The notes under the pieces were generated by a model. It was not told where the DNA came from. It did not search any database and worked only from the letters and a program-made list of their open reading frames with translations. The translations under genes were made by a program, and so were the position numbers. Positions 29,669 to 33,225 of a stretch of 64,000 nt of DNA are shown in pieces (the stretch's first letter is position 1; every line of letters begins with the position of its first letter). Source of the DNA: an uncultured Methylophaga sp. (GTDB taxonomy: Bacteria > Pseudomonadota > Gammaproteobacteria > Nitrosococcales > Methylophagaceae); assembly GCF_947259025.1 (NCBI RefSeq), contig NZ_CAMYKO010000005.1:124001-188000 (forward strand), written 5' to 3'.

Positions 29669-29908
29669 TCAAGAATCGGTCTTTGATATAGTGCGCAGTT
29701 TTTCCGCCAGGGCCTGAGTATCAGTATCGTGCTGTTCGCGCGGGCGCAGTGTAGAGACAGTGCTGATGGTTTGTTTGATTTGTTGCATATAACGACGACA
29801 GCAACTGCAGATCACCAAATGCAAAAACAAGCCAATCCGCTTGCGCAGCGGCAGATCGCCATCAAGGTAGTTGCTGGCTTCTTCAGCGATATCTTTACAT
29901 TCAAACAT
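29669..29908 (-). CDS. Zinc-finger anti-sigma factor (zf-HC2)
   Basis: A 79-residue protein with the HxxxCxxC zinc site (HLVICSCC, about residues 30-37) and an N-terminal ASNYLDGDLPLRKR stretch typical of zf-HC2 anti-sigma factors. It lacks a transmembrane helix, so it is a soluble, probably redox- or metal-responsive inhibitor. It is encoded directly after the sigma factor gene (four bases between), the standard arrangement for a sigma/anti-sigma pair. Confidence 0.85.
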   Translation of the reverse strand: MFECKDIAEEASNYLDGDLPLRKRIGLFLHLVICSCCRRYMQQIKQTISTVSTLRPREQHDTDTQALAEKLRTISKTDS

Positions 29909-29912
29909 CGTT

Positions 29913-30524
29913 CTAGCTTTCCTGATACTTTTCTATACTGTGGTGCAATGCCGTCCGCGCCCGATGCAACAGGACTCGTGCATTAGACGCAGAGATATCC
30001 AGAATGTTACAGATTTCTGTCATCTCCAGACCTTCCATATCAGACATGGTCAATACAGCCCGCTGATGCGGCGGCAATTTCTGATAGGTTTTTTCAATCA
30101 CGTCACGTAACTGATCGTTCTGCAGCAAAGCTTCAGGCGTATCCATATTCCACTGCAGGACATCATCAATACGGTGGCCACGATGGTCGAATTTATAGTC
30201 GGGTTCAGCTTGCCAGCCGTCATCAAGTGATAATTGTCGGCTTTCCCGGCGCAGGCGAGTTTTGGCACCGTTACTGGTGATTTGCAAAAGCCAGGTTTTC
30301 AAAGTGGCGCGGCCTTCAAAACGCGGCAATGCTTTTATCGCCGAAATCCAGGCCTCCTGGACCACCTCATCGGCAAAGGCTTCACCAATAATGGCCCGCG
30401 CTACTGACAGCATAATGCTGTGGTACTGAGTAACAACATAGTCAAAGGCAGCAGCATCGCCCGCGATCAGCGCTGCAATCAGCTTTTCCTGGTCCATTTG
30501 CTGGGGCGGTGCATTTTTTTTCAT
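29913..30524 (-). CDS. ECF-type RNA polymerase sigma factor
   Basis: About 203 residues. Region 2 (about 15-85) has AFDYVVTQYHSIMLSVARAIIGEAFADEVVQEAWISAI and the -10-binding FEGRATLKTWLLQITSNGAKTRLRR. A linker follows, then region 4 (about 140-195) with LPPHQRAVLTMSDMEGLEMTEICNILDISASNARVLLHRAR, the -35 helix-turn-helix. A GTG at 30542 could add six residues, but the ATG at 30524 fits region 2 spacing and leaves a divergent promoter in the gap. It likely controls the divergent operon at 30621. Confidence 0.92.
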   Translation of the reverse strand: MKKNAPPQQMDQEKLIAALIAGDAAAFDYVVTQYHSIMLSVARAIIGEAFADEVVQEAWISAIKALPRFEGRATLKTWLLQITSNGAKTRLRRESRQLSLDDGWQAEPDYKFDHRGHRIDDVLQWNMDTPEALLQNDQLRDVIEKTYQKLPPHQRAVLTMSDMEGLEMTEICNILDISASNARVLLHRARTALHHSIEKYQES

Positions 30525-30530
30525 TCCGTT

Positions 30531-30559
30531 TGTAACAATCACCGATCACAAAAGTCTAT
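30531..30559 (+). promoter_or_regulatory. Putative ECF promoter for the Cys-rich peptide operon
   Basis: TGTAAC (30531-30536), a 17-base spacer and GTCTAT (30554-30559) match the shape of ECF-sigma promoters (GTAAC-type -35, CGTC/GTCTA-type -10). Transcription would start near 30566, about 55 bases before the peptide gene. The -35 adjoins the sigma factor start codon. Confidence 0.5.
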
Positions 30560-30620
30560 GGTAGCAAGACTGGCTGATGAATAGCTGGTTGTTTTTGTTC
30601 TGACATAGAAGGATATAACC

Positions 30621-30944
30621 ATGAGTAACAAGAAAACATCAATCGCAATTGCCGCCAGTGCTGCCATGACGGCAGGTCTGGCTCTGTCACCAAGCATTGC
30701 CAGCGCAGAAAACCCGTTTGCTGCTCAGGAACTGTCTAACGGTTACATGCAACTGGCTGAACACCATGCAGAAGAAGGTAAGTGTGGTGAAGCCAAATGT
30801 GGCGGCGACAAGAAAACTGAAGAAGGCAAATGTGGTGAAGCCAAATGCGGCGCCGATAAGAAAGCCGAAGAAGGCAAATGCGGCGGCGATAAAAAAATGG
30901 ATGAAGGTAAATGCGGCGAAGCCAAATGTGGTGGTAACAAATAA
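30621..30944 (+). CDS. EGKCG-repeat Cys-rich exported peptide (HvfA/bufferin-like)
   Basis: A 107-residue precursor with a signal peptide (about 1-29, KKTSIAIAASAAMTAGLALS...IASA) and a short linker. Its C-terminal half is an imperfect 14-residue repeat: EGKCG occurs four times and EAKCG three times, spaced by GGDKK or similar. All seven cysteines lie in these motifs. EGKCG peptides of this kind are substrates of DUF692 (MNIO) enzymes in HvfA/bufferin-type RiPPs, where the Cys is modified to bind copper. AAGGA precedes the ATG. No maturase is adjacent. Role inferred: metal or oxidant buffering in the periplasm. Confidence 0.85.
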   Translation: MSNKKTSIAIAASAAMTAGLALSPSIASAENPFAAQELSNGYMQLAEHHAEEGKCGEAKCGGDKKTEEGKCGEAKCGADKKAEEGKCGGDKKMDEGKCGEAKCGGNK

Positions 30945-30969
30945 GTTATCAGCCCGCCTTTATGGACCG

Positions 30970-30995
30970 AATAAGGGCTCGCAAGAGCCCTTATT
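30970..30995 (+). terminator. Hairpin between the peptide gene and doxX (attenuator or mRNA stabiliser)
   Basis: AATAAGGGCTC (30970-30980), a GCAA tetraloop and GAGCCCTTATT (30985-30995) form a perfect 11-bp stem. No real T-run follows (CACTTTAAGG), so it probably lets some transcripts through. This would give more of the peptide than of the downstream products. Confidence 0.6.
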
Positions 30996-31015
30996 CACTT
31001 TAAGGAAAACATATC

Positions 31016-31657
31016 ATGTGGCTAACAAAACTGGGCTGCGGCCTGCACAAGCTGCTGAATAGCACCCGACAAGTCGACTTTCTGGCACCGCTGCTGCTGA
31101 GATTGTATCTGGCACCGGTTTTCTGGGTGGCTGCCAACAACAAATGGAATCCGTTTGATGCTGACAGCTCGCTGGAAAACACCATCGCCTGGTTCGCCAA
31201 TCCGGATTGGGGGCTGGGCCTGCCGTTTCCGGAAGTGATGGCCTACCTGGCCTGGGGGGCCGAGTATGTCGGCGCCATCGCTCTGATTCTGGGGCTTGCT
31301 GTGCGCTGGACAGCGATACCACTGATGGTCACGATGGTCGTGGCTGCAGTGTCGGTACACTGGCAAAACGGCTGGCAGGCCATCCATGACAAGATGAGTC
31401 CGTTTGCTTCAGACAATGTAGATGGCGCTATTGAAAGACTGGATGCGGCCCGTTCCATTTTGCAGGAACACGGTCACTACGACTGGCTGACCGAGACCGG
31501 CAACTTCGTGGTGCTCAACAACGGAATTGAATTTGCGGCAACTTATTTTGTCATGTTGTTGGTGCTGTTTTTTATCGGGGCCGGAAAGTATCTGAGCCTG
31601 GATTACTGGATTGTCAGCCAATGCCAACACAACAGAGGTGATTCAAATGTTGATTAG
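31016..31657 (+). CDS. DoxX-family membrane protein
   Basis: A 213-residue protein with four to five membrane helices and the DoxX-type sequence [17 protein letters not shown], with [23 protein letters not shown] and a C-terminal [23 protein letters not shown]. DoxX relatives act in thiol/sulfur redox or membrane stress and, in my recollection, recur beside DUF692/bufferin-type genes. The ATG follows AAGGA. It overlaps msrP by 11 bases, so it is in one operon with msrPQ. Its exact job here is unknown. Confidence 0.88.
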
Positions 31658-32609
31658 ACGCAGGAAACCCTGGGATCTGCCGGAGTCGGAAGTCACCGAT
31701 TACAAGGTCTACAAAAACCGTCGCCAGTTCCTCAATACTTCGATCACTGCCGGACTGGCCCTGGCCGCTGCGCCATCTATCGGTCTGGGTAAGCCGGTCG
31801 ATGAACTGCAGGTTTACAAGGATCTCAAACCCAGTCCGTTTTCTACTGATGAAGAGAAAACCACCTTTGAGGCCATCACTACCTACAATAATTTTTATGA
31901 GTTCGGTACCGGCAAGGAGGATCCTTCGCTCTATGCCACCGAGTTTCCGGATGAGTCGCAAATCTGGAAGGTGGAAATCGACGGTGAATGCGACAACCCC
32001 GGTGTCTACGAATACGATGATCTGGTCAAGCCGTTCACGATGGAAGAGCGCATCTACCGGATGCGTTGTGTCGAAGGCTGGTCAATGGTGATCCCCTGGA
32101 TTGGCTTCCCGCTGGCCGAGCTGTTAAAACGCGCCAAACCCAACTCCAAAGCTAAATACGTGGAGTTCACCACGCTTTATGATCCTGAGCAGATGCCCGG
32201 CCAAAACCGCGATGTGCTGGAGTGGCCTTATGTTGAGGGGCTTCGCATGGATGAAGCGATGAACCCGCTGACTATGATTTCGGTGGGGCTCTACGGTAAA
32301 GAATTGCTGGGGCAGAACGGTGCGCCATTGCGGCTGGTCGTGCCCTGGAAATATGGTTTCAAGAGTATTAAGTCGGTGGTGCGGATCCGCTTCGTTGAAG
32401 AGATGCCTCAAACGGCATGGATGAAAGCCAATGCCAATGAGTATGGCTTTTACTCCAACGTGAACCCCAATGTGAATCACCCGCGCTGGAGTCAGCGCCG
32501 TGAACGTCGCATCGGTGAGTTTCTCAAGCGCGATACTTTGATGTTTAACGGATATGGTGACTACGTTGCTGAGCTCTATTCAGGCATGGACCTCAAACGC
32601 TATTTCTAA
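31647..32609 (+). CDS. msrP: Periplasmic methionine sulfoxide reductase, catalytic subunit MsrP
   Basis: Repairs oxidised methionines of periplasmic proteins with a molybdopterin cofactor. The 320-residue protein has a Tat-type signal ([21 protein letters not shown]), the Moco Cys in [24 protein letters not shown], and the C-terminal [19 protein letters not shown] block of the YedY family. The frame could begin at 31611 inside doxX, but the ATG at 31647 with AGAGGTG upstream gives the family's usual start ([14 protein letters not shown]). It works with MsrQ downstream. Confidence 0.96.
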
Positions 32610-33225
32610 CGACAATAAGGGCAGTTTTATCAGGCTTAGCCACCTCAAGGTGCTGGTATTTCTGATCTGCCTTTATCCGTTGTTTTACATGACCTGGGGG
32701 TTTTTCACCCACCAACTGGGTGCCAACCCGATTGAGGCTGTGACCCGTGATAGTGGTCTGTGGGGGCTGCGCTTCCTGTTGATTACGCTGTGCGTGACCC
32801 CGTTGCGCTGGCTGACCGGCATTAACCAGTTGGTACGCTTCCGCCGTATGCTGGGCTTATTCGCCTTTTTCTATGCCACCGTGCATATGCTGCTTTACCT
32901 GGGCCTGGATCAGTTTTTCAACTGGTATGAAATCTGGCTCGATATTATCAAACGGCCGTTTATTACCGTGGGGTTCATCAACTTTATAGCCCTGTTGCCG
33001 CTGGTATTCACCTCCACCAACAAAATGGTCAAACGCCTCGGTGGCCGTCGCTGGAAAAAGCTGCACAAGCTGACTTATTTTGTTGCCGCTGCCGCCTGTA
33101 TTCACTTCCTGATGCTGATCAAGGCGGATATCCGTGAACCGGTGATTTATATCATCATTCTTACCGGTTTGCTGGGCGTGCGTCTGCTGCATCATCTGCG
33201 GCAGAAAAAGCTCAGCGCCCAGTAA
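32554..33225 (+). CDS. msrQ: Heme-binding membrane subunit MsrQ
   Basis: Passes electrons from the quinone pool or flavin to MsrP. It has six membrane helices of the ferric-reductase-like type. The heme ligand histidines lie in [31 protein letters not shown], and the family's W-rich start ([33 protein letters not shown]). The true start is uncertain. The ATG at 32554 overlaps msrP by 56 bases and adds a 20-residue non-family leader. Non-ATG starts just after the msrP stop, after AAGGG at 32618, are possible. Family assignment is firm. Confidence 0.93.

Follow-up and report, generated by a model that had tools for sequence, protein, structure and literature searches.

The question raised by the 64,000 nt stretch of DNA analysed here (the window) is how a peptide of the HvfA family, a kind of ribosomally synthesised and post-translationally modified peptide (RiPP), could be matured when no maturase gene lies beside its own. 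The window covers C5:124001-188000 of a 2.70 Mb genome (G000, 99.88% complete). At 29669-33225 it carries genes for an anti-sigma factor and an extracytoplasmic function (ECF) sigma factor on the minus strand, divergent from the peptide gene hvfA and from hvfX, msrP and msrQ. Our analysis indicates that this is probably one part of a divided HvfA pathway of the oxazolin/captophorin type, in which HvfA would be matured in trans by a co-regulated pair of proteins, HvfB and HvfC (HvfBC), and the methionine-sulfoxide reductase MsrPQ would belong to the same periplasmic stress regulon. It is very likely that the seemingly orphan peptide is not an orphan.

The identity of the peptide was examined first by its motifs and profile matches. 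It has a Sec-type signal sequence (judged by eye) together with four EGKCG and three EAKCG motifs, the seven that had been noticed in the first-pass annotation of this DNA, and by count all seven of its Cys residues lie within KCG. Signal peptide, repeated EGKCG and the NF050137 match (Table 1) place it in the HvfA family. We do not call it an HvfA equivalog because it scored 38.8 bits against model NF050188, which has a cut-off of 95. Only the two HvfA models match the peptide; the BufA2 model NF050166 gave no match. These matches exceed chance: across the genome, NF050137 matched the hvfA gene only (in two stretches), and a degenerate EGKCG pattern at the DNA level occurred three times, always within hvfA, while the reversed pattern did not occur. 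HvfA is probably a copper-binding, cysteine-repeat peptide that is presumably expressed and exported, and homology suggests that its Cys residues could be converted by HvfBC to 5-thiooxazoles.

The first-pass annotation had remarked on the absence of an MNIO maturase near the peptide, and the whole-genome search bears this out, the two MNIO (PF05114) matches lying at C5:677477-678262 and C7:52959-53741, neither in the window. The former, 522 kb from hvfA, is HvfB (NF003818, 451.2 bits; cut-off 360), and after it comes HvfC (NF050145, 311.7 bits; cut-off 142); they have sequence relatives with solved structures in 3BWW and 3DEE, respectively. An HvfB-type MNIO and HvfC are therefore both encoded in the genome that encodes HvfA, and we rejected the idea of an HvfA without any maturase; what is missing is adjacency to the precursor gene, which is usual for maturase genes though not required. 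The MNIO on C7 is BufB (NF050167, 393.1 bits; cut-off 310), encoded with a DUF2063 protein and two BufA2 peptides (79.5 and 110.2 bits; cut-off 60). The case that the first-pass annotation had set against its own reading, DUF692/DUF2063 genes with an EGKCG peptide of their own, did not arise: no EGKCG peptide was found beside hvfBC in this genome, and the peptides at the second MNIO locus are BufA2.

This arrangement is shared by the relatives of the window genome. Our sample comprised 57 genomes of one family, taken to be Methylophagaceae because this gene order is found, among named records, in Methylophaga species and their relatives, and 36 of them had a completeness of 90% or more and a contamination of 5% or less (good genomes hereafter). 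HvfX was above cut-off in 48 of the 57, HvfB in 51, and the HvfA motif was found in 46. From these genomes we fetched 46 hvfA loci (4.4-10 kb) and 34 hvfB loci (4.8-12 kb), and then 16 held-out hvfB loci. The sigma factor, anti-sigma factor, hvfX and msrP were each present in 45 of the 46 hvfA loci and msrQ in 43, while hvfB or hvfC was found in none, which is how consistently this gene order occurs without an MNIO gene in the family. Conversely, hvfC was present in all 34 hvfB loci, and neither the sigma gene, hvfX, msrP nor a peptide with at least two [EG][GA]KCG motifs was found in any of them. The split between hvfA and hvfB is fixed across the family genomes seen. Departures from the common gene order are few. 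Loci without hvfX, msrP or msrQ are ends of contigs; the sigma-less L037 (G014) is not at a contig end. In L040 and L062 the anti-sigma match is on the other strand, apart from the sigma gene, and in these two and in L054 and L056 the sigma gene lies farther from hvfA than usual.

A promoter element links the two halves. The sequence TGTAAC-N17-GTCT[AC] occurs once before hvfA in 45 of the 46 family loci (GTCTA in 43, GTCTC in two), the exception being G022. When sequence of up to 220 bases upstream of hvfB was scanned with a matrix built from these sites, the best match fell on a TGTAAC in 34 of 34 loci. In 33 of them the strict pattern TGTAAC-N17-GTC lay 45-67 nt upstream of hvfB; it occurred nowhere else in the same loci (660,348 positions), and shuffled upstream regions gave on average 0.00 of 34. 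In the held-out loci it was present in 16 of 16, 43-70 nt upstream, with none elsewhere in 231,256 positions. Combining both sets gives 49 of 50 loci at 43-70 nt, from 50 of the 51 hvfB genomes (G009, with hvfB at a contig start, was left out). The hvfB gene of G058, one genome of another family in the order, does not have the pattern. An element defined at one locus has found an unlinked maturase operon and held in held-out genomes, so orphan precursors can be paired with their maturases by regulation. We infer that the window sigma factor reads both promoters. Of the options raised in the first pass, a maturase acting in trans is accordingly well supported, HvfB and HvfC being unlinked, having no EGKCG neighbour and carrying an hvfA-type element before hvfB.

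The gene that precedes hvfB in 27 of the 34 loci, here called up251, was considered as an operon member and rejected, as the element sits between up251 and hvfB. It encodes a conserved exported protein of 251 aa (L064:4625-5377) with an invariant CGC (Cys170 and Cys172 in 17 aligned sequences). Pfam gave no match and NCBIfam none above cut-off, and its fold model (pLDDT 77.3) has beta-sandwich-like domains with structural matches only to beta-sandwiches at low TM scores.

Precursor and maturase also occur together. Genome-wide matches to both HvfA and HvfB were found in 44 of the 57 genomes, to HvfA only in two, to HvfB only in seven and to neither in four. Among the 36 good genomes, HvfA is present in 35 (33 by motif search, plus G022 and G027 at the locus level) and HvfB in 35, and these are the same 35; the remaining one, G003, is without HvfA, HvfB, HvfX and any match to the window sigma factor. 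Such co-occurrence and joint absence, the shared element and a shared leader (below) disfavour the suggestion, also made in the first pass, that HvfA is an unmodified, thiol-rich periplasmic buffer for metal or oxidant and that HvfBC serves another peptide; moreover, no EGKCG-type precursor adjoins hvfB in the 34 loci that could be such a client. We regard it as unlikely, even though the maturase is missing from the hvfA locus, G027 keeps hvfBC despite an HvfA with only three KCG motifs and the loss of hvfX from the locus, and unlinked precursors may be unmodified (PMC12452194).

The leader of the window HvfA is NPFAAQELSNGYMQLA. A leader motif [LIM]xxGY, mostly after NPF or similar, was found in 47 of 47 family HvfA peptides, in 29 of 30 HvfA peptides from outside the family (26 of the outside loci compared carry hvfB and hvfC) and in none of 14 BufA2 peptides. 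The filter of at least three KCG motifs for this count, and for the count of Met residues below, left out the L045 peptide, and L046 contributed two. Two hvfA-like genes stand in tandem at one locus in both L046 (G008) and L056 (G016). In a tree of HvfB that took in 17 of the 34 family sequences, a branch with SH-aLRT 99 separated family HvfB, together with 35 of 38 outside hvfX-linked MNIOs, from BufB, which was a long branch away and had the other three outside rows (Colwelliaceae) on its side. Given the HvfB branch, the common leader and the co-occurrence, HvfBC rather than BufB is likely to be the enzyme pair for HvfA. Maturation of HvfA by the bufferin enzyme BufB on C7 would fit the presence of a BufA2-BufB-DUF2063 locus in G000 and of the same element before bufA2 in several genomes. 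We nevertheless consider it highly improbable, in view of the leader and tree results and of the distribution of the enzymes: a BufB-like MNIO (258.7-276.5 bits against NF003818, below its cut-off) occurs in 12 of the 57 genomes and a third kind (181.3-189.2 bits) in six, compared with HvfB in 51.

For a view beyond the family we took the best 80 of 573 HvfX-related named loci, which are near relatives only; 22 belong to the family (L135 on account of its place in the tree, the other 21 on gene order) and 58 are outside it. L135 had been a candidate for an hvfX-msrPQ link outside the family, and was rejected as its HvfX groups with that of G021 and its msrPQ is followed by aceE, an order also seen in the family. 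Among the 58 outside loci, an hvfB-like gene lies within 6.5 kb of hvfX in 39, of which 26 have hvfA, hvfB and hvfC, and hvfA without hvfB in reach was seen in four; msrP near hvfX was found in none. Within these best 80 of 573, separation of hvfA and hvfB is not unique to the family, linkage is commoner outside it and the msrPQ link is seen only inside it. Three Pseudomonas loci (L191, L193 and L194) have a linked hvf operon with the element 73-84 nt upstream of its hvfA gene, which suggests that a promoter formerly common to one operon was retained, in copies, by both of the split halves. In Spongiibacter it lies 91 nt before hvfX, followed by sigma and anti-sigma genes, and in two further outside loci it is before hvfX (L133) or elsewhere (L160).

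Several observations weigh against the proposal that HvfBC matures HvfA in trans. The relatives in all of our counts are related genomes and not independent samples. The shortfall of the peptide against the HvfA equivalog model has been given above, and in the 12 genomes with a BufB-like MNIO that enzyme could act on HvfA. As for the element, GTCTA was relaxed to GTC post hoc, once 34 hvfB loci had been seen (the pattern was then applied unchanged to the 16 held-out loci), the -10 of hvfB is looser than that of hvfA, and in L086 the GTC is replaced by ATC. Only six of the 58 outside loci have the strict pattern anywhere, and it therefore does not serve as a promoter of hvf genes in general. 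A tree of HvfX that included every third family sequence of L018-L063 gave no clean family clade, the outside loci L124 and L156, with linked hvfABC, falling inside. HvfA was matched without HvfB in G045 and G046, and HvfB without HvfA in G009, G018, G022, G026, G027, G030 and G031. Not all of the latter stand as counter-examples: hvfA is present in G022 (L063), the element in G027 is followed by a peptide gene with three KCG motifs (L109), and in G018 and G031 the sigma gene is at a contig end, so that the absence of HvfA may be due to assembly. This leaves G009, G026 and G030.

Three genomes also bear on the pairing of sigma factor and promoter, and count on the same side. In G027 and G014 the elements before both hvfA and hvfB are kept, although no ortholog of the window sigma factor was found (best identity 29% and 30%, respectively). 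These elements may be read by another sigma factor; alternatively, the sigma gene was lost recently or falls in assembly gaps. The locus of G027 (L109, on C3 of a reduced 1.5 Mb genome) has no sigma, anti-sigma or hvfX gene and keeps the 3-KCG hvfA, msrPQ and the element; in G014 (L037, on C63) no sigma gene was found between the anti-sigma gene and hvfA, and no ortholog of the window sigma factor elsewhere in the genome. In the 99% complete G022 (L063, on C4) the sigma gene, matched in pieces, and hvfX are in broken frames and the -10 of hvfA has decayed, while the hvfB element looks intact. G022 is possibly a natural loss of the hvfA half of the system.

A motif of Cys4 and H-x3-C-x2-C in a protein whose gene adjoins an ECF sigma gene, as in ZAS (MseR-type) anti-sigma factors, is present in the window sequence, and an open reading frame with Cys4...HxxxCxxC was found in 43 of the 46 family hvfA loci. 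The ECF sigma/anti-sigma pair noted in the first pass is borne out by profile matches; the anti-sigma factor passes NF052368 and falls just below the Pfam zf-HC2 cut-off (18.7 bits against 22.2). A second copy of the element lies within the sigma gene, on the strand of that gene and about 75 nt before the anti-sigma start, and is exact in 32 of the 46 loci. Because this internal element is coding, we tested synonymous codon choice. Across 44 sigma genes, the codons of its -10 (xxG TCT) ranked first and second of 183 columns for excess codon conservation; of those around the -35, the ATT that follows it ranked fourth and its AAC 19th. The internal element is best read as a predicted promoter that gives the anti-sigma gene its own feedback.

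Single matches to the element elsewhere in the genomes were rejected as evidence, being near background: the exact element is matched in 50 of 57 genomes, and the reversed pattern is often equally frequent per genome. We therefore gave weight only to places that recur before the same gene. One such place is dsbD, where the element precedes the gene in 18 of 30 family loci (30 of the 57 genomes had this upstream region examined), including G000 (C4:110224-110251, L098, directly upstream). Before bufA2 it is exact in G001 (twice), G004, G005 and G012, and it is exact near bufB in G011. The -10 before bufA2 is weaker in G000 (C7, about 52124; GTCGA) and G047 (GTCCA), and a GTCAG variant is present at the G029 locus; no element was found at the buf loci of G006, G008 and G019. 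It also lies about 30 nt before ovoA, for ovothiol biosynthesis, in G010 (L105) and G024 (L106), of a third genus of the family; OvoA is profile-confirmed in G010 only, and the ovoA sites, like the Slp-like sites, come from two genomes each. If real, the recurrent sites point to a regulon for thiol and metal defence.

Gene identities at the window locus are summarised in Table 1. The gene calls and coordinates of the first-pass annotation proved correct, including doxX (here hvfX), msrP and msrQ downstream of the peptide, all of which score above their profile cut-offs. MsrP and MsrQ equivalogs in tandem identify an MsrPQ system, MsrP having a Tat-type RRxFL close to its N-terminus (judged by eye). 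Two starts are uncertain in position: the ECF sigma gene could begin at a GTG at 30542, and the first ATG of msrQ overlaps msrP, with a later start possible.

Table 1. Genes and predicted promoters of the hvfA locus in the window (feature, position, strand, basis).
Anti-sigma factor, ZAS type, 79 aa	29669..29908	-	Cys4 + H-x3-C-x2-C; NF052368 54.3 bits, cut-off 50
ECF sigma factor, 203 aa from the ATG used	29913..30524	-	Sigma70_r2 and Sigma70_r4_2 above cut-off
Predicted internal ECF-type promoter, 3' part of sigma gene	29984..30011	-	TGTAAC-N17-GTCTA
Predicted ECF-type promoter of hvfA	30531..30558	+	TGTAAC-N17-GTCTA
hvfA, exported HvfA-family precursor, 107 aa	30621..30944	+	NF050137 54.7 bits, cut-off 19.5
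hvfX, DoxX-type membrane protein	31016..31657	+	NF050144 equivalog 238.6 bits, cut-off 80; DoxX PF07681
msrP, Met-sulfoxide reductase catalytic subunit	31647..32609	+	NF003767 465.1 bits, cut-off 207
msrQ, haem-binding membrane subunit	32554..33225	+	NF003831 172.6 bits, cut-off 130

By homology, an oxidant or metal may release the ECF sigma factor from its zinc-type (ZAS) anti-sigma factor; both this inducing signal and the pairing of sigma factor with promoter in the HvfA/HvfBC system are our inference. The sigma factor would then transcribe hvfA-hvfX-msrP-msrQ and the distant hvfB-hvfC from promoters of the same kind. HvfBC could modify the Cys residues of HvfA before export, and the exported peptide might bind copper or take up oxidant in the periplasm, with HvfX acting at the membrane and MsrPQ repairing oxidised Met. 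A broader scheme is possible, although we hold it tentatively and would sooner doubt than assert it: a RiPP pathway was cut in two in Methylophagaceae, each half with one copy of an ECF promoter, and a single periplasmic unit for defence against oxidants and copper is made up of the precursor, the DoxX protein and Met-sulfoxide repair, the peptide being activated by a separately encoded, co-induced maturase and the internal promoter providing anti-sigma feedback.

The presence of MsrPQ raises another explanation, that HvfA works like MrpX, as a sacrificial oxidant sink regenerated by MsrPQ. The peptide of the Azospira and Brucella systems is reportedly Met-rich. The window HvfA, in contrast, is Cys-rich, with four Met residues in 107 aa, the start included, and does not have the Met-rich character of MrpX; family HvfA peptides have 1-10 Met after residue 25. 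The substrate of MsrP is Met sulfoxide and not Cys, which also speaks against this explanation, and we judge it very unlikely. Its appeal lies in a gene order shared with Azospira yedYZ-mrpX and Brucella bcrS-abcS-bcrXQP, where, according to the available part of PMC8315932, an ECF sigma/anti-sigma pair, a small peptide and an MsrPQ-type reductase are brought together against hypochlorous acid (HOCl). The peptide here differs in being a Cys-repeat RiPP precursor with a maturase.

The proposed HvfA system has precedents among peptides of known chemistry; the papers compared from here on were available in part. In Fontimonas, Haemophilus and Neisseria, 5-thiooxazoles are found in EGKCG peptides (fontiphorin, oxazolin and gonophorin, the captophorins), for which a role in copper is proposed on evidence; a two-repeat peptide shows a mass change of -8 Da (PMC13097082). 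They resemble the present system in their EGKCG-repeat precursor and MNIO with a DUF2063 partner, and differ in that precursor and maturase are shown as one cluster there and that the chemistry, only predicted for the present HvfA, is known. A survey of Buf_EGKCG/oxazolin clusters reports EGKCG precursors unlinked to MNIO genes, leaving as a question whether they are modified, and, for a few EGKCG clusters, oxidored_molyb or ferric-reductase genes, which fit MsrPQ here; no lineage, fixed split or common promoter is described in the available part of that survey (PMC12452194). The third option of the first pass, a new variant joining a Cys-rich peptide to Met-sulfoxide repair, holds for genome organisation and predicted co-regulation, with the biochemical link putative and the association partly in print already (PMC12452194; PMC7907618, available portion). 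Our literature search found no paper joining HvfA with MsrP, or Methylophaga with bufferin. As far as that literature goes, the family-wide split, the common promoter pairing the halves and the constrained internal promoter are new. The locus also ties an HvfA peptide to periplasmic Met repair at the level of gene order, in a free-living group suited to direct tests of trans-maturation.

The closest regulatory parallels are in Haemophilus and Neisseria. In H. influenzae, HvfA, HvfB, HvfC and HvfX are encoded in one operon (PMC13419390), and after HOCl RpoE2 controls msrAB, mtsZ and a cluster of DoxX-like, periplasmic, UPF0276 and DUF2063 proteins (PMC7907618), a cluster that we read as the hvf operon genes. 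Both there and here an ECF sigma factor appears to stand over DoxX, peptide and MNIO-type genes together with periplasmic Met-sulfoxide repair; there, as far as the accessible text tells, the four hvf genes are clustered and the repair is by MsrAB and MtsZ, whereas here hvfA-hvfX adjoins msrPQ and hvfBC lies elsewhere. In N. meningitidis, sigmaE and the ZAS protein MseR control a DoxX-containing operon and MsrA/B (PMC2893595, PMC3240639). The NMB2140-2145 genes share with the window an ECF sigma factor, a ZAS anti-sigma factor in which Cys4 and the motif Cys residues matter, a DoxX gene in the operon and a Met-sulfoxide reductase in the regulon, and differ in having sigma and anti-sigma genes inside one operon and MsrA/B unlinked (PMC2893595). 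The Neisseria -10, CGTCTAAH, is like that of the Methylophaga element, and its -35, GTMAGBWTT, is only partly alike (PMC2893595). By these partial accounts, Neisseria and Haemophilus would have analogous regulons in which the hvf operon is intact.

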